DNA of 64,000 nucleotides. Origin: Lacinutrix jangbogonensis. Lineage in GTDB: Bacteria > Bacteroidota > Bacteroidia > Flavobacteriales > Flavobacteriaceae. The stretch is from assembly GCF_000797445.1 (NCBI RefSeq), contig NZ_JSWF01000032.1, positions 1 through 64,000 on the forward strand, written 5' to 3'. The notes under the pieces were generated by a model. It worked only from the letters and a program-made list of their open reading frames with translations. It did not search any database and was not told the origin of the DNA. The position numbers and the translations under genes were made by a program. Of this stretch, positions 3,204 through 41,419 are shown in pieces; the first letter of the stretch is position 1, and each line of letters opens with the position of its first letter.

Positions 3204-4379
3204 TTATTTCCAAGTATAGTTTTTAGCTTTGGCTTGAGATTTTATTGCTTTTATCATGGCATTTTCCAATCCGTTGCTGTTGTCTTTATTTGCCTTTAGA
3301 ATATAATCCTTTCGTTTACTGTTTAATTCTTGGATTTTTTGCTGAATTGTATCACGTGCTTTCTTTTTAGTGGCAACATACTTTTTTATTTCTGACGCAC
3401 TTTTGTTTTTAAGTTCCTGAGGTAATTCATTTTCTTGTAAGGTTTCATATTTAAACGCTTTGTCTTTTGAAGCATCTACTAAATCCCAAGACGAATTCTT
3501 ATATAAGTGAGAGCTTTTACTTACTGTTCTGCTCACTGCATTAGCACTGCTGTAACCTTGAGCATTGTTATCTTGTTCGGCTTGTAATTTCATTTTTTGC
3601 CTACCTTGATTACCATATGCTACATAAGTTTTATTAAGGTTGTTGTTTTGTTTTAGAATAGCATTATCATAAGGTGTTGCAACATGAACAGTTTCTTGGT
3701 TATGGTTTATTGCCATATAATCGCCATGAGCTAAATCTGCTCCATTTTTCCAGTAACCAGAAATACCTTGATTGTAATCACCACAAAAAATAGTATTTAC
3801 AGTTACGTCTTTATTATGTGCACGTTTTGAGGCGTCTTTGTAGCTTATTTTTCCTTGAGTAAAAGGTTCGTTTCCAGCAATAAAAATAAATTTCAAATCG
3901 TCGGGATTGTCTTTCCATTTTAATTGATCTAATGCCGTGTTTATTACATATCCGCAATATTCGTTACCGCCTTTTGTAGTTAATGAAAAGAGTTGTTTAG
4001 AAATTTCATCTAAATCATCACTAAATGCTAATACTTGTCTAATGTAACCTTGTTCACTATTTAAATTGTCGTTTCCATATTCGTAAATTGCAATTTCTAG
4101 ATTTGGCTTATCGTTTTTATATTTTGCATAGGATAATTCGTTTACAATTTCCCAAAGTTGTGCTTTTGCTTGATCTATTAATCCATCCATACTATTACTG
4201 GTGTCTAATAGTAATGCCACTTTAATGTATTGCTTGTCTGGTTTTGGAGTTGCTGGATCAATTGTTTCAATAGCTTGGTTTAGAGCCAAACGCTCTGTTT
4301 GCTTTTTATTGTTGGCATTACAAGCCAAAAAGAAAAAGGTTATTAATGCGATTAAGCTGAATTTAAGTGTTGTTTTCAT
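3204..4379 (-). CDS. von Willebrand factor A domain lipoprotein
   Basis: A 391-residue predicted lipoprotein: signal peptide with lipobox FFLAC (Cys20), then a VWA domain from about residue 52. The metal-binding MIDAS motif is DTSNS at 59-63, followed by MDGLIDQAK. Later there is an Asp-rich strand (KFIFIAGNEPFTQG). The C-terminal third (about 270-391) is charged and helical. VWA domains bind protein partners through a divalent metal, but the partner is unknown here. It follows the SIMPL-like gene on the same strand and the two may be co-transcribed. Its start codon lies directly behind a dispersed 90-bp element with a small ORF. Confidence 0.85.
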   Translation of the reverse strand: MKTTLKFSLIALITFFFLACNANNKKQTERLALNQAIETIDPATPKPDKQYIKVALLLDTSNSMDGLIDQAKAQLWEIVNELSYAKYKNDKPNLEIAIYEYGNDNLNSEQGYIRQVLAFSDDLDEISKQLFSLTTKGGNEYCGYVINTALDQLKWKDNPDDLKFIFIAGNEPFTQGKISYKDASKRAHNKDVTVNTIFCGDYNQGISGYWKNGADLAHGDYMAINHNQETVHVATPYDNAILKQNNNLNKTYVAYGNQGRQKMKLQAEQDNNAQGYSSANAVSRTVSKSSHLYKNSSWDLVDASKDKAFKYETLQENELPQELKNKSASEIKKYVATKKKARDTIQQKIQELNSKRKDYILKANKDNSNGLENAMIKAIKSQAKAKNYTWK

Positions 4380-4468
4380 GTGTTTTTATTTAGTATTTTT
4401 TATGGTCACAAGCGTTTTACTATTAATCATGCTCTTAGTTGCCGGCCTTTTTGGCATGCACACTTCTA
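4380..4468 (-). repeat. Dispersed leader element, copy A
   Basis: Between the stop of the SIMPL-like gene and the ATG of the VWA lipoprotein gene. Read on the minus strand, it shares with copies at 34271 and 42942 a CATG-centred motif followed by an A-run, a later AACGCTTGTGACCAT segment (GAACTGCxTGTGAYC in the others) and an A-rich tail ending AAACACATG. The final ATG is the start codon of the next gene. The three copies are similar along their length but far from identical. Confidence 0.65.
4386..4457 (-). CDS. Putative 23-residue leader peptide (copy A)
   Basis: ATG, 22 further codons and TAA, ending six bases before the VWA lipoprotein start codon. It begins MPKRP and ends VTIKNTK. The equivalent ORF in copy C (42946-43017) has exactly the same length, begins MLKT and ends VILKAIK. 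Whether it is translated is unknown. It could be a by-product of a repeat. Confidence 0.3.
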   Translation of the reverse strand: MPKRPATKSMINSKTLVTIKNTK

Positions 4469-5485
4469 GTTTTCTAATTTTAGTTCCTTCACTTTAATCT
4501 CTCCGTCTTTAGACAGTATAAAATATTTGTTTTTTATTACTTCTTTTACCTTTTCTGTAGGTTTTGGTGCTTCAGGTTTCTCTTTATACTGTAGTTTTAT
4601 TTCCATACCTATTTGTGTTAGAGGTTCTACAATAGACGGATTTATTACAATATCATATTCCTTAAAAGACAATGGATCGTAATAATAAGAGGTTTGCTTT
4701 TTTGCTTTAACAACACCTCTCGGCTTTTTTAGTGCTTCAAAAGAAATACTATTAAAAGCTTGATAACTTTTATAGAATTCTCTGGGAAAATGGCAGTATT
4801 TTATGTCTGCTATAGTAGGTTTGTAATGTGTTAAATCGAAACCTAAATCTAAATAAAATTGTTTTTTTTCTTTGAGAATTTTAAGTATTTCGGCTCTCAA
4901 TTTTGTGTAAACAGCTTCTATATTATCAATAAAGTAATCCACTTTTACTAAGTTGTAAATTTCATTTCTTGCACAAGCAGCAAGTATTTTTTCAAACTGA
5001 TTAACTTTCGTAAATTTAATATGTAGGTTTTGTTGTAGCTCGAAACCTTTTGGGACTTCAGTGTACGTTTTGCTAAAGAGTTTTTTCTCAACTACAGTTT
5101 CGTAAACTGGAACAAAGGAAATAACATCTATAATAATATCCTTTCTAAATAGGCCTTGAGCTGCTAGTGTGTTTTTTACACTGTTAACACGTTCATTCAT
5201 TAATTTGTTCGTTTCTTCTGCAGTTTCACCAATTTGAACCAGATTAAAAACAGCTGTATAAGAATCTGCTACAATATTATTAAGTGCTTTTACATCTATT
5301 GTAATTATCGGATTTGGCACTAGGTTGCGCTGTCTAAAAGTATTCATGTTATTTCGATAAGTATTGGCATTACCAAGTGATTTTGCTTGAATAACATTTT
5401 GTCTAGAAATAGTTGCATTACCTCTAATTTGTGAAGATGCAAAAGAGAAGCATAATAAGAAGACTAAGTAAATCGAGTATTTCAT
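4466..5485 (-). CDS. SIMPL/DUF541-like secreted protein
   Basis: 339 residues with a signal peptide (MKYSIYLVFLLCFSFASSQ). Residues about 60-210 look like a SIMPL (DUF541) domain: an opening beta strand (ITIDVKALNNIVADSYTAVFNLVQ), a helix ending LMNERVNSVKNTLAAQG, a strand (IIIDVISFVPVYE) and a following VNQFEKILAA helix. The C-terminus is Lys/Glu-rich. SIMPL proteins are periplasmic or surface proteins of poorly known role. The family call is from overall pattern, so moderate. It is divergent from the sensor kinase gene and shares the intergenic region with the 21-bp-spaced repeats. Confidence 0.6.
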   Translation of the reverse strand: MKYSIYLVFLLCFSFASSQIRGNATISRQNVIQAKSLGNANTYRNNMNTFRQRNLVPNPIITIDVKALNNIVADSYTAVFNLVQIGETAEETNKLMNERVNSVKNTLAAQGLFRKDIIIDVISFVPVYETVVEKKLFSKTYTEVPKGFELQQNLHIKFTKVNQFEKILAACARNEIYNLVKVDYFIDNIEAVYTKLRAEILKILKEKKQFYLDLGFDLTHYKPTIADIKYCHFPREFYKSYQAFNSISFEALKKPRGVVKAKKQTSYYYDPLSFKEYDIVINPSIVEPLTQIGMEIKLQYKEKPEAPKPTEKVKEVIKNKYFILSKDGEIKVKELKLEN

Positions 5486-5502
5486 GTGTTTTTATTTTGA
5501 TG

Positions 5503-5510
5503 TAAACTTA
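5503..5510 (-). promoter_or_regulatory. Possible -7 element for the SIMPL-like gene
   Basis: TAAGTTTA on the minus strand, one base off TAnnTTTG, 17 bases before the start codon. The same octamer lies on the plus strand at 5660 before the kinase gene. The repeat array ends 28 bases upstream of it, a reasonable distance for an activator. Confidence 0.3.
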
Positions 5511-5538
5511 TAAGCAACCTTTTTTAAATAAAAACCAG

Positions 5539-5591
5539 AATGAGTGAACGCTACTTTATAATGAGTAACCTTGGTTTGTAAATGAGTAAAC
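5539..5591. promoter_or_regulatory. Three direct repeats with 21-bp period, likely LytTR operator
   Basis: AATGAGTGAAC at 5539, AATGAGTAACC at 5560 and AATGAGTAAAC at 5581, an exact 21-base period (two helical turns). A fourth half, ACTCATT, lies in the opposite orientation at 5631-5637. LytTR-family regulators (AgrA, AlgR and relatives) bind tandem sites of about 9-11 bp repeated about every 21 bp, and a LytTR regulator is encoded four genes downstream. Binding by that regulator is inference. The array sits between the divergent SIMPL-like and kinase genes. Confidence 0.6.
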
Positions 5592-5683
5592 AATGTCATT
5601 TTCTCTCTGTAATGCTCCAGTTTCGAGACCACTCATTTTATTATGCCAATTAAAGTATGTAAGTTTATCTTTTAGTAAATAAA

Positions 5684-7870
5684 ATGAAAAACATTAAATT
5701 ATATATCAGTTGTATTTTACTTGTTTTGTGCACCATTACTTCGTACGCACAACAAGGTAGCCCTGTTAGTATAAACCAAAACGATAACGATTTTCACGAC
5801 ATTCGTGGCTTAGTGAAGCAGGAAGACTCGCGCGAAGCAATTGAAGACGTTAACGTTCAAGTAAATGGTGGTGCTTATACATCTTCTAATGGAGCTGGAG
5901 AATTTAGAGTGCTTGCAAAAATTGGAGACGAGCTTATTATTAGTCATAAAGATTTTGAGACCATATATTATACTGTAAAAAGTGACGAGCGCATTATTGT
6001 AAACGTTTTAGCAAGAACATCGCATTCCGATGTTAATTTATTTAAACGTAAACAAAACAGTTCGTTTAATAGCTTAATAGATTCCGCATTAGTCTATAGG
6101 AAGAAGTCTGCCGAAAAAAGTATTCAGTTTGTAACAGAGAGTATTAAAATTAGCACATCTGTTAAACAGAATTCCGAAGCCTTCGAAGTATTAGCCGATG
6201 TTTATATGTATTGGAAACAATACGATTTAGCAGTCTCTAATTATAGAATAAGCCTAAATAGTTTTGAGGCTAACGCAGTAGAACTGAAGTTAGGCAAAGC
6301 CTATATGATGAATAATAATTATCAGGAAAGTATTTCGGTTTTAGAGGAATTAAATCAGAAAGAACTTTCTAATTATCAATTGGTTGAGTTAAATGAAGGG
6401 CTTGGTGATGTGTATTATAGAATGAAAGACTACACAAAGTCTGTTGCTTCATATAAAGAAGCATTAAGCATTGCTCAAAAACATTTAATTGCGCCTAAGG
6501 TAACCGACTTAAATTCTAAAATAGCACAAACATTTGATGCCAGTGGTAAAACGGACAAAGCAAAACAATATTTTAGTAACTCCCTTAATTTGGCATCAAA
6601 AGAAAACAAGAAAAGAGCAATTGAAGAGAAAGTTAAAGTTGCCGATTTTAATTATTCTAATCGAAATTTTGATGATGAAATTCGTTTGAGAGAAGAAGCT
6701 ATTTTAGATATAAAAGATATTGAGAGAGATTCTATAATAGATATTGAAAGCGGTTATACCACGCAAAAGCAAAACTATAAGATTGGGAATGCTTTATTTA
6801 TGCAAAAAAACTATGTTGAAGCGATCCCTTATTTTGAAAAAAGTATTTTGGAAGCAGGAGAGCGCGAAGATTTAGTAGTAAAAAAGGACGCTAATAGAAA
6901 GCTGTCTGAAGTATTTGAAGAGGTTGGCGATTTTGAAAATGCAAAAAAAGCGTATAACGAGTATATTAAGTCTGTAGAAGCCCTTTTTGTAAAAAAAGAA
7001 CAACAAATTACAGAGGCTGCGCGTTTCAACAAAAAAATCACAGATAAACAAAACCGTATTACGTCTCTGGAAAGTGATCGTGAACTATCCGAAAGCAGAT
7101 ATAATTTAAACCAGGAGCAAAATAAGAACCAGAAAATAATAATTTATTCGCTTATTGGTGGATTACTATTATTACTTTTTGCAGGTTTTTTAATGTATAA
7201 ATATATTAAGCAGCAACGTTTAGCAAATAATTTGTTAGCTTTAAAATCGTTGAGAAGCCAAATGAATCCGCACTTTATATTCAACGCTCTTAACTCTGTA
7301 AATAGTTTTATTGCCACTAACGATGAGCGTACAGCAAATAAATATTTAAGTGATTTTTCTAAGTTGATGCGAGCCGTTTTAGAAAATAGTGAGCAAGATT
7401 TTATTCCATTGGAAAAAGAAGTAGAATTACTACAATTATACACCAAATTAGAGCATTTTAGATTTCAAGATAAGTTCGACTATACAGTTACAGTAGACGA
7501 AGCGATTGCTATTGAAGAGTATCAAATTCCACCAATGTTACTCCAACCTTATATAGAAAATGCGGTTTGGCATGGATTACGCTATAAAGAAGAAAAAGGA
7601 CAACTTGATATTTCTATTACTAAAAAGAGTAAAGATGAAATTACCATAACCATTACAGATAATGGTATTGGTCGCGAAAAATCTAAAACACTTAAAACCG
7701 AAAACCAACTAAAACAGAATTCCAAAGGCATGGGTAATATTAAAAAGCGTGTGGCTATTTTAAATGAAATGTATAAAGATAAAGTTGATGTTTCTATAGA
7801 CGAATTATATAAAGGACAAACTGAAGTTGATATAGGAACAAAGGTGGTTGTGACTTTGAAAAAGGATTAG
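5684..7870 (+). CDS. LytS-type sensor histidine kinase with carboxypeptidase-regulatory-like and TPR sensor region
   Basis: 728 residues. In order: signal peptide (to about 23), a CarboxypepD-reg-like beta domain (about 38-105, beginning IRGLVKQEDSREAIEDVNV), TPR-like helices (about 130-440), a coiled coil, one membrane helix (about 485-507), then a LytS-type kinase core. The phosphoacceptor is His530 in SQMNPHFIFNALNS. The ATPase domain has the N box (LLQPYIENAVWHG) and the G box (ITDNGIGR). The sensor region should lie in the periplasm and the kinase in the cytoplasm. The partner is surely the LytTR regulator at 8724. The direct repeats 93-145 bases upstream suggest autoregulation. Confidence 0.93.
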   Translation: MKNIKLYISCILLVLCTITSYAQQGSPVSINQNDNDFHDIRGLVKQEDSREAIEDVNVQVNGGAYTSSNGAGEFRVLAKIGDELIISHKDFETIYYTVKSDERIIVNVLARTSHSDVNLFKRKQNSSFNSLIDSALVYRKKSAEKSIQFVTESIKISTSVKQNSEAFEVLADVYMYWKQYDLAVSNYRISLNSFEANAVELKLGKAYMMNNNYQESISVLEELNQKELSNYQLVELNEGLGDVYYRMKDYTKSVASYKEALSIAQKHLIAPKVTDLNSKIAQTFDASGKTDKAKQYFSNSLNLASKENKKRAIEEKVKVADFNYSNRNFDDEIRLREEAILDIKDIERDSIIDIESGYTTQKQNYKIGNALFMQKNYVEAIPYFEKSILEAGEREDLVVKKDANRKLSEVFEEVGDFENAKKAYNEYIKSVEALFVKKEQQITEAARFNKKITDKQNRITSLESDRELSESRYNLNQEQNKNQKIIIYSLIGGLLLLLFAGFLMYKYIKQQRLANNLLALKSLRSQMNPHFIFNALNSVNSFIATNDERTANKYLSDFSKLMRAVLENSEQDFIPLEKEVELLQLYTKLEHFRFQDKFDYTVTVDEAIAIEEYQIPPMLLQPYIENAVWHGLRYKEEKGQLDISITKKSKDEITITITDNGIGREKSKTLKTENQLKQNSKGMGNIKKRVAILNEMYKDKVDVSIDELYKGQTEVDIGTKVVVTLKKD

Positions 7871-7872
7871 AA

Positions 7873-8208
7873 ATGAGAGTTATAGTTTTTTATTTAGTAG
7901 TTTTTATTTTAATATTTAGTTGCAAAGCAGCTAAAGAAAGAAAACAATGTATTGAGTTTGTTAATGGGAAAATTGCTTTAGAGATTAATTCTTTTGAAGA
8001 GTTAAAAACACATATTACAGATGTTGAAAATTATGAAGATTTACTTTGGGTTAAAGATGGCTTAATCTCATCAAAACAAGAAGTTTTAATATTAATAGAA
8101 AACAAAAATGTCCTTACTATACAAAGTATTAAAGGTGCAAACGGAAAAGAAGGGAATAGCGTTATAATAATAACCACAAATCAATGTTTAGAGGAAATTG
8201 AACAATAG
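7873..8208 (+). CDS. Small lipoprotein of unknown function
   Basis: 111 residues with a short signal peptide and lipobox (ILIFSC, Cys17). The rest is a small alpha/beta segment with no motif I recognise; two further cysteines lie at about 25 and 105. It starts two bases after the kinase stop codon, so it is almost certainly co-transcribed with it. The lipoprotein nature and the operon position hint at a link with the kinase's periplasmic sensor, but that is inference. Confidence 0.65.
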   Translation: MRVIVFYLVVFILIFSCKAAKERKQCIEFVNGKIALEINSFEELKTHITDVENYEDLLWVKDGLISSKQEVLILIENKNVLTIQSIKGANGKEGNSVIIITTNQCLEEIEQ

Positions 8209-8212
8209 CAAT

Positions 8213-8713
8213 ATGAAAATTAGAGTTTTAATATTGTTGTCATTTTTTATAATTCTCTGTTGTAAATCAGCAGATAAAGCGACAGTTGTAAACTACAATG
8301 TCAAACTATCAGATTATATAAAAATGTATTCTGAAAAAGGTTTAATTACAAATAATCCTTTAATAATTGTGAATTCAAAACCATACAAGCTGTACTCAGA
8401 ATTAGATAAAGGTGATATAGAATTGATGGAACAACCAGCAAGAAATTATAGTTATTTTAAACAGAAAAATAATTATTTCATTGATAAATTAGGAAAAAGA
8501 GCATATTATGGAATAGTACATATCAAGAGTCGAATTATTTTGTACTGTGGAATTCCTTGTAAAAGAGAATATATTGTAAATGGTAAATTTACTGAAGAAG
8601 AAGAATATTTGGATAAGTATTTTTTACAAAAATTTAAATACCATAACAGCATTTCTAGATTAAAATTAAAAGATAATAATTATGTTTCAATTACTATTGT
8701 TGAAACAAAATAA
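8213..8713 (+). CDS. Second small lipoprotein of unknown function
   Basis: 166 residues. The ATG at 8213 gives a clean lipoprotein signal (MKIRVLILLSFFIILCCKS, lipobox Cys near 17). A TTG five codons upstream is less likely. It opens like its neighbour (MRVIVFYLVV... CKAAK against CKSADK), which may reflect duplication or just a shared signal type. A Lys/Tyr-rich body follows. I know no family. The gene lies four bases after its neighbour and ten bases before the LytTR regulator. Confidence 0.65.
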   Translation: MKIRVLILLSFFIILCCKSADKATVVNYNVKLSDYIKMYSEKGLITNNPLIIVNSKPYKLYSELDKGDIELMEQPARNYSYFKQKNNYFIDKLGKRAYYGIVHIKSRIILYCGIPCKREYIVNGKFTEEEEYLDKYFLQKFKYHNSISRLKLKDNNYVSITIVETK

Positions 8714-8723
8714 CGAATTGCAT

Positions 8724-9461
8724 ATGAAACTAAACTCAATAATAGTAGAAGACGAAGAAATAAGTCGAGAGATCCTTAAAAACTATCTCAAAAAATACTG
8801 TCCAAATGTAAATGTTATTGGTGAAGCTGCGAACATTAATGAAGGCTTAGAATTAATAAGGAATAACGAATTAGATTTAGTATTTCTAGATGTAGAAATG
8901 CCTTATGGTAATGCCTTCGATTTGTTAGATAAAGTTGGCGACAGAGACTTTGAAACCGTTTTTGTAACTGCATACAACAATTACGCATTAGATGCCTTAA
9001 ATGCGCACGCAAGCTATTATTTAATGAAACCTATTGCTATAGACGATTTAATAAAAGCAGTAGATTACGTAGTAGAGATAAAAACCAAAGAAAATGCACT
9101 TCAAGATCAAGTTTTGGTTCCAAAAACGAGTAATAATGTAGCTGGAAAAATAACGATTCCGCAGCAAAATGGTTTTGAAGTTATAAGTACAGCAGATATT
9201 TTGTTTTGCAAAGCCGATGATAATTACACCGAAATCTACCTAAATACCAACAAGAAGACAGTAGTTAGTAAAACACTTAAATATTTTGAGCAAGCATTAC
9301 AGGATTCAAACTTTGCACGTGTGCATAAAAGTTACTTGGTTAACGTTAACGAAGTTGTAAAATATGTAAAAGGAAAAGGAGGAAGTGTAATTTTAAGCAA
9401 CGGTAAGCAAGTAATGGTTTCACCATCTAGAAAATCTGAATTATTATCTTATTTTAAGTAA
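8724..9461 (+). CDS. LytTR-family response regulator
   Basis: 245 residues. Receiver domain 1-120 with acidic pocket EDEE (9-12), phosphoacceptor Asp56 in VFLDVEMP and conserved Lys102 in YLMKPI. A LytTR DNA-binding domain covers about 140-245, with DILFCKADDNYTEIYL, FARVHKSYLVN and the final beta strands. I chose the ATG at 8724, ten bases after the previous stop; the longer frame from 8682 adds an unlikely 14-residue tail inside the lipoprotein gene. It is the expected partner of the kinase at 5684 and the candidate ligand of the 21-bp repeats at 5539-5591. Confidence 0.95.
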   Translation: MKLNSIIVEDEEISREILKNYLKKYCPNVNVIGEAANINEGLELIRNNELDLVFLDVEMPYGNAFDLLDKVGDRDFETVFVTAYNNYALDALNAHASYYLMKPIAIDDLIKAVDYVVEIKTKENALQDQVLVPKTSNNVAGKITIPQQNGFEVISTADILFCKADDNYTEIYLNTNKKTVVSKTLKYFEQALQDSNFARVHKSYLVNVNEVVKYVKGKGGSVILSNGKQVMVSPSRKSELLSYFK

Positions 9462-10154: not shown

Positions 10155-10508
10155 CTAATCTATTCGGTTTTTTATCTCGCTAATTAATGCTTCACTAGAA
10201 GGGATAGCCTTAATTTTTTTAGACGAAATTAATATAGAGAGATTATCTTCAGTTTTAGACAAAATTATTGGATACTCATATTTTGAATTTGGATACAGTT
10301 TTTCAAATTCATCACTATGGAGAAAATCCATATTTACTGGAGATGATTTTCTAAAATCTTTCCAATGGTTGTTTTCAGAAAGGGTATCAAAAGTAATAGC
10401 ACATAAATTACAATTATAAGTTTTTGGACTAAATATCTTATGCGCAACATCTAAAATGGTATTTCCAATTCCAGAATCAGCATTGTAAACAAAGAGCAGT
10501 TTCTTCAT
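10155..10508 (-). CDS. Conserved hypothetical protein with a Cys-X-X-Cys pair
   Basis: 117 residues, no signal peptide. It opens MKKLLFVYNADSG and has a NCNLCAITF segment with two cysteines three apart, then a charged middle (NNHWKDFRKSS, FLHSDEFEK). I recall similar unnamed proteins in Bacteroidota but no function. The CxxC and the small size could suit a thiol or metal role; that is a guess. It begins one base after the MurI stop on the same strand, so the two are probably one transcript. Confidence 0.7.
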   Translation of the reverse strand: MKKLLFVYNADSGIGNTILDVAHKIFSPKTYNCNLCAITFDTLSENNHWKDFRKSSPVNMDFLHSDEFEKLYPNSKYEYPIILSKTEDNLSILISSKKIKAIPSSEALISEIKNRID

Positions 10509-10509
10509 A

Positions 10510-11292
10510 TTAGAACTCTAAATAATCAACTTCAGACTTTTGTCCGAGAAGTGATTGCATCACTTCTGTCGTCTTTAAATTTATATAAAACGCGTTTCTA
10601 GGTTTTACTGTTTCAATATTTAATAATTGATGTTGTTCTAAAACAGATTGTGTTTGTTTTGCTACGGCCAAGCCAGAATCTATAATTTTAACATGCTTCG
10701 GAAGCAATTTAGTAAGCATTGGAATAAGATATGGATAATGTGTGCAACCTAACACTAAGTAGTCTATGTTAGCTTCAAGCATAGGTTTTAAATAGCTTTT
10801 AAGAAGGGTTTCCATCTCTGTCGAGCCCAACTTACCACTTTCAATTAATTGTACAATACCTTCTCCTATTTGCTCTATAATGGTTATCCCATTAGAATAT
10901 AAATTAGATGTATTGTGAAACAAAGCGCTAGTTAGTGTGCCTTTAGTTGCCAGAATGCCTATAGCTTTTGTTTTTGTGTTTAATGCCGCTGGTTTTATCG
11001 CTGGTTCTATACCAATAAATGGGACACTGTATTTTTTTCTTAAAAGGGTAATAGCATTTGTAGAGGCAGTGTTGCAGGCAACAGCAATAAGTTTACAGTT
11101 TTTTTCTAAAAGGAACTCGGTATTTTTAATACTAAGCGCTATAATTTTGTCTTTACCTTTTGGTCCATAAGGCGCATTAATACTATCGGCTAAGTAAATA
11201 GAATTTTCGTAAGGTAATAATGCGTGAATCTCCTTCCAAATGGAAGTGCCACCAACACCAGAATCGAATATGCCAATAGGTTGTATACTCAT
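10510..11292 (-). CDS. murI: Glutamate racemase
   Basis: 260 residues, the usual length. It converts L- to D-glutamate for peptidoglycan. Signature segments: FDSGVGGTSIW (Asp10 region), AVACNTAS with catalytic Cys73, and LGCTHYP with catalytic Cys183. The cytosolic enzyme is the last named member of the minus-strand envelope block, separated from the Skp/OmpH genes by a strong terminator, so it probably has its own promoter in the short gap or depends on read-through. Confidence 0.96.
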   Translation of the reverse strand: MSIQPIGIFDSGVGGTSIWKEIHALLPYENSIYLADSINAPYGPKGKDKIIALSIKNTEFLLEKNCKLIAVACNTASTNAITLLRKKYSVPFIGIEPAIKPAALNTKTKAIGILATKGTLTSALFHNTSNLYSNGITIIEQIGEGIVQLIESGKLGSTEMETLLKSYLKPMLEANIDYLVLGCTHYPYLIPMLTKLLPKHVKIIDSGLAVAKQTQSVLEQHQLLNIETVKPRNAFYINLKTTEVMQSLLGQKSEVDYLEF

Positions 11293-11310
11293 ATTAGTTT
11301 ATAAAAATAC

Positions 11311-11337
11311 AAAAGCCGACTTAATAAGTCGGCTTTT
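11311..11337 (-). terminator. Terminator of the BamA-Skp transcript
   Basis: Perfect stem AAAAGCCGACTTA / TAAGTCGGCTTTT. It lies after the stop of the second OmpH-like gene (11362) and before murI. Because the stem ends are A and T runs it can act in either direction. Confidence 0.88.
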
Positions 11338-11361
11338 AGTACTATTTGTTTTAGGCTTTTC

Positions 11362-11871
11362 TTAGAACCCTAATTCTTTCTTTACATCTAAAAGTAAGTC
11401 TTTACCTTGAGCCATAATTACGCCTCCACCTTGAGCAGAATCTAACACGTAATCAAAACCTTGAGCTTTTGCTACTTTTAAAATTGCAGCTTTAGCCTTT
11501 TCGGTAATTGGTGTTAAAAGATCTATTTCCTTTTGTTGTAATTGTTTTTGTGCATTTTGAGCATATTGTTGAATAGATTGTTGATCTGTCTGTACTTCAA
11601 CATAGCGCTTCTCGTTTTCTTCTTGAGTTTTTTTAGTTGCTTCTATTTCGTATTGATCAGTTTTAGCTTTTAAGTCTTTTTTCATAGCCTCGATATCAGA
11701 TTGGTAAGTTTTACCAACACTTTCCATATCTGCTTGTGCCTTTATCGTCTCAGGCATAGACTGAATTAACTCAGAGGTATTAATATGAGCAACTTTTGAT
11801 TGAGCATTTGTAAAGCTAGTAGCTCCAAAAAATAATGTTGCTGCAATTAGTAATGTTTTAATTTGTTTCAT
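11362..11871 (-). CDS. OmpH/Skp family periplasmic chaperone
   Basis: 169 residues: signal peptide (MKQIKTLLIAATLFFGATSFTNAQ), a short beta strand (KVAHINTSELIQSMPE), a long coiled-coil hairpin (about 45-125) and a closing strand (GFDYVLDSAQGGGVIM). This is the Skp plan: a trimer whose tentacles hold unfolded outer-membrane proteins on their way to the Bam complex. It sits downstream of bamA and a second OmpH-like gene in the same orientation. Confidence 0.92.
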   Translation of the reverse strand: MKQIKTLLIAATLFFGATSFTNAQSKVAHINTSELIQSMPETIKAQADMESVGKTYQSDIEAMKKDLKAKTDQYEIEATKKTQEENEKRYVEVQTDQQSIQQYAQNAQKQLQQKEIDLLTPITEKAKAAILKVAKAQGFDYVLDSAQGGGVIMAQGKDLLLDVKKELGF

Positions 11872-11908
11872 TTTTAAAATAGTATTTGTCTGTTATAAAT
11901 TATTAATT

Positions 11909-12985
11909 TTAATCGTCTTGATTCTCTTCTATTGGAGCACTTTCTTTCTCTTTCTCTTTCTCTTTTTCTTCTTTTGCTTTCTTACGATCTTCTAAAGTTT
12001 TTTTCCTTTTATCGTCAAGTATTTTTTTTCTAGCTGCTCTATCTGCCAATTTTTTTTGTTTACGTGCTTCTAGAATTTCTTCTTTTGTTTTAGGCACATC
12101 TTCAGTTTCGGCTTTTTTATCTCCAGCTTTTCCTGCTGTACTTGTTTTCTCCGCGGTACTTTCTTCTTTATTTGTTTGCTCCTGGGTAGTCCCTTCGTCA
12201 CTTACTTTTTCCTCAGTACCTTCTTTTAATTTATTTCTAGCCTCTAATTTCTCTTGTTTCAGTTTTTCTCTTGCAGCAATGGCAGCTGCTCTTTTATCTG
12301 CTACTACTTTTTTTCTCGCTTCTACTAAAGCAGCTCTATCAGCTTTTTTCTTATCTAAAGCTAGTTGTCTTGCATCTTTACTTCCGTCAATCTCTACAGT
12401 TACATCTTCTTCTTTAGCTTGTTTCTTCTCTTTTTTAGACTTTAACTGTTTTCTATTAGAAGAGCGCGTTATTGTTCTTAAAACCTGTTCACTTATATCA
12501 AAACGTTCTGCTGAATATAACATAACTACATCTGCAGATTTGTCGAAAATAAAATCGTATTTTTTAGCTTTTGCTATGTCCTGAACAGCCTGAAAAATTT
12601 GATCTTGAACGGGCTGCATAAGTTGTCGCTTTTGGATCATTAAATCTCCATTAGGTCCAAATCGCTTTTGCTGATAATCTAATATCTCCTTTTCTTCAAA
12701 AAAGATATCTTCTTCGCGTTCTTCAATTAATTCTTTAGTTAAAAGCGCTTTCTCGTTATTTAAATTGGTACGCTTTTGTGCTATACCTTTTAATTGTTTT
12801 TCAATATCTTTTTTCCATTTCTGAACTTTTGTTTCTAACTGTGAAGTCGCTTCAGAATATTCAGGAACGTTTTGTAAAATATATTCAGTATCTATATATC
12901 CTATTCTTACGCCACGTCCTTGCGCATAAGATTGAAAAGATAACATTGATACTAGGGTCAATAAAAAAAGAACTTTAAATTTCAT
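11909..12985 (-). CDS. OmpH/Skp-like protein with long charged C-terminal extension
   Basis: 358 residues, about twice the normal Skp length. Residues 1-165 follow the Skp plan (signal peptide, RIGYIDTEYILQNVPEY strand, coiled-coil, KYDFIFDKSADVVMLY strand). From about 180 the sequence is almost entirely Lys, Arg, Glu, Ala, Asp and Thr, with no hydrophobic core and short repeats such as KKADRAA, RKQKKLADRAARKK and KEKEKEKE; it is probably a disordered or single helical tail. Its start codon is 238 bases after bamA. The tail may tether the chaperone or bind peptidoglycan; unknown. Confidence 0.9.
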   Translation of the reverse strand: MKFKVLFLLTLVSMLSFQSYAQGRGVRIGYIDTEYILQNVPEYSEATSQLETKVQKWKKDIEKQLKGIAQKRTNLNNEKALLTKELIEEREEDIFFEEKEILDYQQKRFGPNGDLMIQKRQLMQPVQDQIFQAVQDIAKAKKYDFIFDKSADVVMLYSAERFDISEQVLRTITRSSNRKQLKSKKEKKQAKEEDVTVEIDGSKDARQLALDKKKADRAALVEARKKVVADKRAAAIAAREKLKQEKLEARNKLKEGTEEKVSDEGTTQEQTNKEESTAEKTSTAGKAGDKKAETEDVPKTKEEILEARKQKKLADRAARKKILDDKRKKTLEDRKKAKEEKEKEKEKESAPIEENQDD

Positions 12986-37776: not shown

Positions 37777-37848
37777 GCGAAAGTAGCTCAGGGGTAGAGC
37801 ATCACCTTGCCAAGGTGGGGGTCGCGGGTTCAAATCCCGTCTTTCGCT
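37777..37848 (+). tRNA. tRNA-Gly (GCC)
   Basis: 72 bases. Acceptor arms GCGAAAG / CTTTCGC with discriminator T. D arm AGCTC-AGGGGTA-GAGC. Anticodon stem-loop ACCTT-GCC-AAGGT, anticodon GCC. T arm CGGGTTCAAATCCCG. No encoded CCA. Confidence 0.97.
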
Positions 37849-37904: not shown

Positions 37905-37988
37905 GCTGAAGTGGTGGAATTGGTAGACACGTTGGACTTAAAATCCAATGTCCCTTGGGACGTACGGGTTCAAGTCCCGTCTTCAGTA
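37905..37988 (+). tRNA. tRNA-Leu (TAA)
   Basis: 84 bases with a long variable arm (TGTCCCTTGGGACG) as expected for a class II tRNA. Acceptor GCTGAAG / CTTCAGT with a G-T first pair and discriminator A. Anticodon loop CTTAAAA gives TAA. T arm CGGGTTCAAGTCCCG. No encoded CCA. The first acceptor pair G-T is slightly unusual. Confidence 0.95.
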
Positions 37989-41287: not shown

Positions 41288-41354
41288 CTTTTGGCTTTTA
41301 ATGGCCAAAAGTTAGGCTGTTCACTATATCTTTTTTGCAGTAAAAGCAAAAAAG
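41288..41354. repeat. Twin hairpins in the DegT-galE gap
   Basis: Hairpin 1: CTTTTGGC (41288-41295) / GCCAAAAG (41304-41311). Hairpin 2: CTTTTTTGC (41330-41338) / GCAAAAAAG (41346-41354), followed by GATGCCGTTTCCACCC. The second half resembles a dispersed flavobacterial repeat. Hairpin 1 may end the DegT mRNA. Confidence 0.5.
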
Positions 41355-41419
41355 GATGCCGTTTCCACCCTTCTCGTAAGATTAGAAGCAATATTAAAAT
41401 TAAAGTTTAAATTATAAAA

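Follow-up and report, generated by a model that had tools for sequence, protein, structure and literature searches.

The DNA between a SIMPL-domain gene and a divergent histidine kinase gene carries three short boxes in strict helical phase, which raises two questions: which protein would read this array, and which promoter would it serve? The features below are numbered on the window, that is, the whole stretch of 64,000 nucleotides analysed.

3204-4379, minus strand: VWA-like lipoprotein gene adjoining the SIMPL gene and probably in its operon (VWA_2, E 0.00033, under the curated cut-off); found in 68/80 loci
4466-5485, minus strand: SIMPL-domain gene (Pfam), predicted main target
5539-5601, plus strand: predicted operator of three 21-bp units, with boxes at 5539-5549, 5560-5570 and 5581-5591; conserved
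5684-7870, plus strand: histidine kinase gene (Pfam); the product has TPRs and, at its N-terminus, a weak CarboxypepD_reg-like match
8724-9461, plus strand: gene of a response regulator with a LytTR domain (Pfam), the proposed operator binder; found in 80/80 loci

The repeat array

The AATGAGT-type boxes of the 64-kb window start at 5539, 5560 and 5581, exactly 21 bp apart, as a first, sequence-only reading of this DNA had stated. They read AATGAGTGAAC (box 1, 5539-5549), AATGAGTAACC (box 2, 5560-5570) and AATGAGTAAAC (box 3, 5581-5591), box 2 having one mismatch to AATGAGTnAAC. The signal is carried only by the 21-bp spacing, single boxes not being unusual: the window holds six copies of AATGAGT on the plus strand and two on the minus strand, and AATGAGTnAAC with one mismatch shows no excess there (7 found, 7.3 expected). 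An AATGAGT triple at 21 bp appeared in none of 300 first-order resamples of the window, and a single 21-bp pair arose across all 300. No further exact 7-mer triple with an equal spacing of 15-35 bp was found elsewhere in the window, nor any in 10 resamples. In the 4.0-Mb genome (46 contigs), the exact pair AATGAGT-N14-AATGAGT occurs twice, both times within this array. The same reading had noted an opposed ACTCATT at 5631. The copy is present in the window, but as a fourth element it was rejected, only 3/79 homologous loci having an exact copy 75 bp or less from the kinase start.

Genes around the array

The SIMPL gene (start 5485) diverges from the plus-strand kinase gene, and the VWA-like gene lies downstream of SIMPL. 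The kinase is a 728-residue protein with PF06580 (E 1.2e-23), HATPase_c (E 4.1e-6) and TPR matches; the CarboxypepD_reg-like match at its N-terminus falls below the cut-off. The regulator (245 residues, ATG at 8724) combines a receiver domain (PF00072, E 2.1e-19) with a LytTR domain (PF04397, E 1e-19), so that a LytTR regulator is indeed encoded in the adjacent operon, as first read. A regulator of this make-up and a His_kinase plus HATPase_c core are those of a LytS/LytTR two-component system. Strict LytS kinases, however, have a 5TM-5TMR_LYT plus GAF input domain, according to the excerpts available of PMC5552118. The kinase has no such Pfam match at E <= 0.001, and TPRs instead, and is therefore not a LytS in the strict sense; the early label "LytS-type" holds for the catalytic core and fails for the membrane sensor, for which there is no Pfam match. 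The regulator's best NCBIfam match is BtsR (NF008677, E 2.8e-32), and its assignment as a BtsR equivalog was rejected at 112 bits against a cut-off of 246. NCBIfam gave no name for SIMPL, VWA or three of the targets tried.

Two small lipoprotein-like ORFs (7873-8208 and 8213-8713, plus strand) separate the kinase and regulator genes, with relatives in 4/80 and 2/80 of the loci described below; among these loci the kinase-to-regulator distance ranges from 4 to 934 bp. The window also holds two tRNA genes (37777-37848 and 37905-37988, plus strand).

Conservation upstream of kinase homologues

Conservation was followed in 80 named loci of Flavobacteriaceae that encode a kinase homologue (the best 80 of 211); the closest named relatives of the kinase are from Lacinutrix. 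The regulator is encoded in all 80 (71-95% identity), VWA in 68 and SIMPL in 41, some contigs ending early. The best 21-bp box pair matches at least 12 of 14 positions in 63/80 loci, against 0.5% of 1600 resampled regions, and at least 13 in 54/80, against 0.06%. A cut at 10 of 14, which 79/80 kinase-upstream regions pass, is too lenient, since 26% of resampled regions pass it too; the weakest pairs, in six of the 80 loci, lie at 8-10 of 14. With a leave-one-out matrix of 64 columns all 80 loci score above the maximum of 400 resampled regions, scores that are inflated by kinship among the loci. Resampled upstream regions were used in place of kinase-coding windows, which make a generous null. 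The third box, not used for setting the register, matches at least 5 of 7 positions in 49/79 loci, with a mean match of 4.81 versus 2.07 at other offsets. Box spacing is 21 bp in 81 pairs and, second commonest, 42 bp in 25 pairs. Locus L137 was left out of the 79-locus counts; it has a weak match to model R1 (next section; E 0.02) farther upstream. The repeats upstream of orthologous kinase genes, whose comparison the first reading had proposed as a check, are thus conserved.

Across genera, the boxes are kept while the spacers diverge. This pattern, the recurrence of the motif at unrelated promoters and the empty count of triples in the resamples make a chance or neutral tandem repeat scarcely credible, even in AT-rich intergenic DNA where single boxes are common.

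Sites elsewhere in the genome

A genome search for box pairs with two mismatches returned mostly noise (35 and 54 matches, versus 30 and 38 for the reversed pattern), and it also brought out a longer shared unit, roughly AATGAGTnAACnnTACTTTTn, in tandem upstream of other genes. Model R1 was built from nine rows of eight own-genome loci. It recovers these loci at E < 2e-5, which is circular because they are its training set; the following match (0.05) also lies in the window array. Within the genus, the kinase occurs in 12/12 relatives, all with an R1 match just upstream (E 7.7e-8 to 0.031), and each of the 12 has a best R1 match of E <= 1.1e-6. The SIMPL gene is found in nine of the 12 and in the own genome, each time with an upstream site.

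Model R2, trained on 38 kinase-upstream arrays of other genera, provides an independent test of the own genome, with the following matches.

Window, 5537-5599: E 4.1e-9
C24:37388: E 1.5e-10
C24:35438: E 3.3e-8
C24:31186: E 4.7e-6; new relative to R1, about 59 bp before a CarboxypepD_reg/vWF_A gene
C19: E 9.6e-6
C31:10253: E 4.7e-4
C28: E 0.003
C31:7325: E 0.13, weak
C14:63930: E 0.32, weak

The motif with a 21-base period, for which a genome-wide scan had been suggested, thus stands at nine promoters or loci of the own genome, the window array included. Three of the arrays lie within about 6 kb (C24:31186-37450), before genes of the VIT/VWA-CarboxypepD_reg-plug type. A further possible array was seen at C35:171434-171490 (minus strand; R2 E 0.006). 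Candidate sites at C12:62198 and C14:313169 were rejected as coding sequence, and R2 matches at C36, C37 and C39-C42 (E 0.07-0.12) as copies of a repeated stretch.

Co-occurrence with the kinase-regulator pair

The survey covered 149 family genomes of 148 genera, with thresholds of E <= 1e-90 for the kinase and E <= 1e-65 for the regulator. Both proteins are found in the same 79 genomes, encoded side by side. At E <= 1e-3, R2 finds sites in 63 of the 79 pair-positive genomes and in none of the 70 pair-negative ones; at E <= 0.01 the figures are 71/79 and 8/70, all these counts ignoring phylogeny. Among the 139 R2 matches listed (E <= 1e-3), 48 are at the kinase and 91, in 46 genomes, elsewhere. 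These 91 weigh most, because R2 was trained on kinase-upstream arrays, and none of them is in a pair-negative genome. Sixteen pair-positive genomes have no site at E <= 1e-3, fourteen of them with kinases of 44-57% identity; drift explains the missing sites only in part, since other genomes with kinases of 42-52% identity have matches.

These observations strongly favour the proposal, already made from the sequence, that the array is a LytTR operator: it very probably belongs to the regulator encoded at 8724, whose partner is the TPR-type kinase at 5684. Alternatively, some other regulator, of the LytTR or another class, could bind the array and have the kinase-regulator pair as just one of its targets. 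The genome does hold 24 LytTR matches (23 over the cut-off), and co-occurrence was computed for the window's pair alone. This is nevertheless improbable, as kinase-distant sites are confined to pair-positive genomes, the array adjoins the pair in every one of the 80 loci, and among the LytTR genes the window's alone has a strong site within 5 kb.

Promoter geometry and direction

Geometry was examined at 68 sites, 8 from the own genome and 60 from relatives (the best 60 among the matches listed). An opposite-strand ORF lies near 55 of them, its start 30-100 bp away in 53 and 55-65 bp away in 39; the other two, with starts 188 and 207 bp away, were left out of the ORF counts. The sites face away from the gene served. 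In the direction of that gene, a T-run comes after ACTCATT and then TAnnTTT at a fixed offset of 35, where at least 4 of 5 positions match in 62/68 sites, versus 0-18 at 29 other offsets tested; the operator would thus precede its target's core promoter. In flavobacteria, the sigma-A box at -12 to -5 reads TAnnTTTG (PMC9723704, in the part available), which would place the near operator box at about -41 to -51 of putative start sites. For the window, this gives the following elements.

5503-5510, minus strand: leftward -7 element TAAGTTTA of the SIMPL gene (TAnnTTT at offset 35), putative start near 5498
5530-5534, minus strand: putative T-run in place of the -33 element of the leftward promoter
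5660-5667, plus strand: TAAGTTTA, -7 element of the rightward kinase-operon promoter, putative start near 5672; 54/79 loci have an exact copy 75 bp or less from the kinase start

A fixed distance to TAnnTTT, with the array facing away from the gene, is as it would be for an activator operator. Repression seems unlikely: some LytTR regulators, such as PlnD, are repressors according to literature excerpts, but the boxes here lie upstream of the putative -33 region and keep one fixed phase. The T-run, moreover, differs from the TTTG that is the consensus of a strong -33 element.

The direction of the operator and its distance to the -7 box make the divergent SIMPL-VWA promoter the best-fitted target. 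Counted from TAAGTTTA at 5660-5667, the boxes stand at about -81 to -133 of the putative kinase start, and autoregulation is the weaker claim. The first reading had put these two in the reverse order, with an autoregulatory operator that may also control SIMPL and VWA; its second part is now the better fitted, and its first likely holds, with less certainty. In a tentative alternative, the operator would serve the divergent gene (SIMPL or VWA) alone, its closeness to a kinase operon that is not autoregulated being incidental. Standard geometry is indeed found only leftward, and in the five loci that lack both SIMPL and VWA (L124, L143, L156, L169 and L171) the array tends to score somewhat lower than in the rest (p 0.056; L151, at a contig end, left out of the comparison). 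Yet these five loci keep the array, with scores of 27-51 against a null maximum of 4.1, and three of them (L156, L169 and L124) are low for the leftward -7 box. Genome G022 likewise lacks a clear leftward -7 box, yet its array is strong (E 9.0e-6); the opposite ORF there, 207 bp away, we take to be MutS-like. Control of the SIMPL-VWA promoter together with autoregulation is therefore retained as the preferred reading.

Predicted protein targets

Of the 53 opposite-strand ORFs, 23 form one linked group and eight are SIMPL genes, the rest falling into smaller groups. Members tested in the group of 23 carry CarboxypepD_reg-type domains, with VIT, VWA, plug and TPR domains in the long ones. Pfam domains of representative targets are VIT, VWA, CarbopepD_reg_2, Plug, MG2, Por_Secre_tail, TonB_C and a Tox-MPTase3-like domain, and 40/53 ORFs pass a crude signal-sequence test. 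The picture is of a predicted regulon made up mostly of envelope proteins. Two tandem paralogous lipoprotein-like genes at L010:7420-9225 and 10360-12246 (plus strand) have a near-identical operator copy each and no Pfam match. In a relative, an operator-linked lipoprotein-like gene (L216:1804-3459, minus strand) harbors a Tox-MPTase3-like metallopeptidase domain (E 2.6e-9).

A predicted structured RNA downstream of the operator

An opposite-strand ORF is missing at 13 of the 68 sites, nine of which share a downstream sequence. In its fold, a closing stem that ends in a U-run encloses inner hairpins. The RNA model R3 has one match in the own genome.

C19:157544-157685 (L013:5045-5188), plus strand: predicted structured RNA of about 140 nt, R3 E 6.5e-33

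R3 matches at E < 1e-6 were found in 8/12 genus relatives and in genomes G017 and G020. In the family, 15/149 genomes have R3 matches; 14 of these also encode the kinase-regulator pair, G042 being the exception. The RNA set consists of 27 members (L013, L253, L255-L264 and L267-L281); L265, on the opposite strand of L255, and L266 were left out (E about 0.006). Two-sided changes occur in 30/35 pairs and 91.1% of cells pair in an alignment that was fitted to the structure, the first, unfitted alignment of 9 sequences giving 14/35. Across 500 shuffles none of these measures was attained, and the signal is lost when the partners are slid out of place.

Upstream of the closing stem, at 13-74 nt, 13/27 members have an R2 match oriented as expected; nine of these members were originally found via the operator. 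Among the 18 members found by R3 alone, four (L256, L263, L276 and L279) have the operator, two (L267 and L278) a weaker or farther R2 match, and 12 none, so that the RNA would be wider than its control by the operator. Rfam 15 gave no match over the RNA in the 23 members scanned (E up to 5 / up to 1), the close genus members L255, L257, L258 and L261 lying outside the scan. Separately, the window carries an Rfam Flavo-1 RNA (41306-41387, minus strand, 51.1 bits), another copy of which is at L276:2946-3011.

Proposed mechanism and significance

In the model that we propose, an envelope signal would lead the kinase to phosphorylate the regulator. The phosphorylated regulator would bind two to three 21-bp units on one helix face, just upstream of the -33 region, and activate a sigma-A (TAnnTTTG) promoter. 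The leftward SIMPL-VWA promoter would have the standard geometry, and the same array, its nearest box 81-91 bp before the putative kinase start, would probably autoregulate the kinase-regulator operon. Similar arrays would form a regulon of mostly envelope proteins and the structured RNA.

A broader view, to which we give about even weight, is that roughly half of the sampled Flavobacteriaceae genera have one ancestral envelope-sensing kinase-LytTR pair, whose phased operator would drive surface proteins (SIMPL, VIT/VWA, CarboxypepD_reg-plug and MG2-domain proteins) as well as a new structured RNA in several genera, hence a post-transcriptional arm. A two-component system of 79/149 sampled family genomes thereby receives a concrete predicted operator and a predicted regulon. 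The SIMPL domain, whose function is unknown, is placed in this predicted regulon with other envelope proteins, which makes the system's role testable. The analysis also brought up a structured RNA with strong covariation and, in the 23 members scanned, no Rfam match.

Comparison with known systems

Literature searches found no print record of the motif, the regulon, the RNA target or the system, and the open PMC literature no LytTR operator in Bacteroidota. LytTR sites, as described in the available part of PMC4847170, share no consensus; they consist of at least two repeats, each 9-11 nt long, separated by spacers of 11-13 nt. The array fits this description, with a 10-nt core (AATGAGTnAA), an 11-nt spacer, a period of 21 and three units.

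The YpdB operator at yhjX of Escherichia coli resembles it in having a LytTR regulator and a direct repeat, GGCATTTCAT, whose period, as counted on the quoted oligonucleotide, is 21 bp; YpdB binds these repeats cooperatively (excerpts of PMC4847170). It differs in having two units rather than three, another sequence and another kinase type. BtsS/BtsR of gamma-proteobacteria is likewise a kinase-regulator pair with conserved motifs in target promoters (PMC5552118, in part). BtsS, however, has a membrane sensor where the kinase here has TPRs, and no transporter target was seen among those predicted here. At agr P2/P3 of Staphylococcus aureus, AgrA also uses direct repeats upstream of a promoter, with one array between divergent promoters. 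An AgrA LytTR dimer occupies two direct repeats, the proximal one centred near -60 (PMC4227749, as far as available), whereas the proximal box here would lie at about -41 to -51 of the leftward start; phylum, signal and sequence differ as well. For the RNA, Rfp18 of Flavobacterium offers a parallel as a flavobacterial, strongly folded sRNA with at least three stem-loops (PMC9723704, in excerpt); compared by description only, the two could be related or distinct. Operators of LytTR regulators with repeats of this kind are thus already known elsewhere, and it is the predicted regulon and the predicted RNA target that are new.
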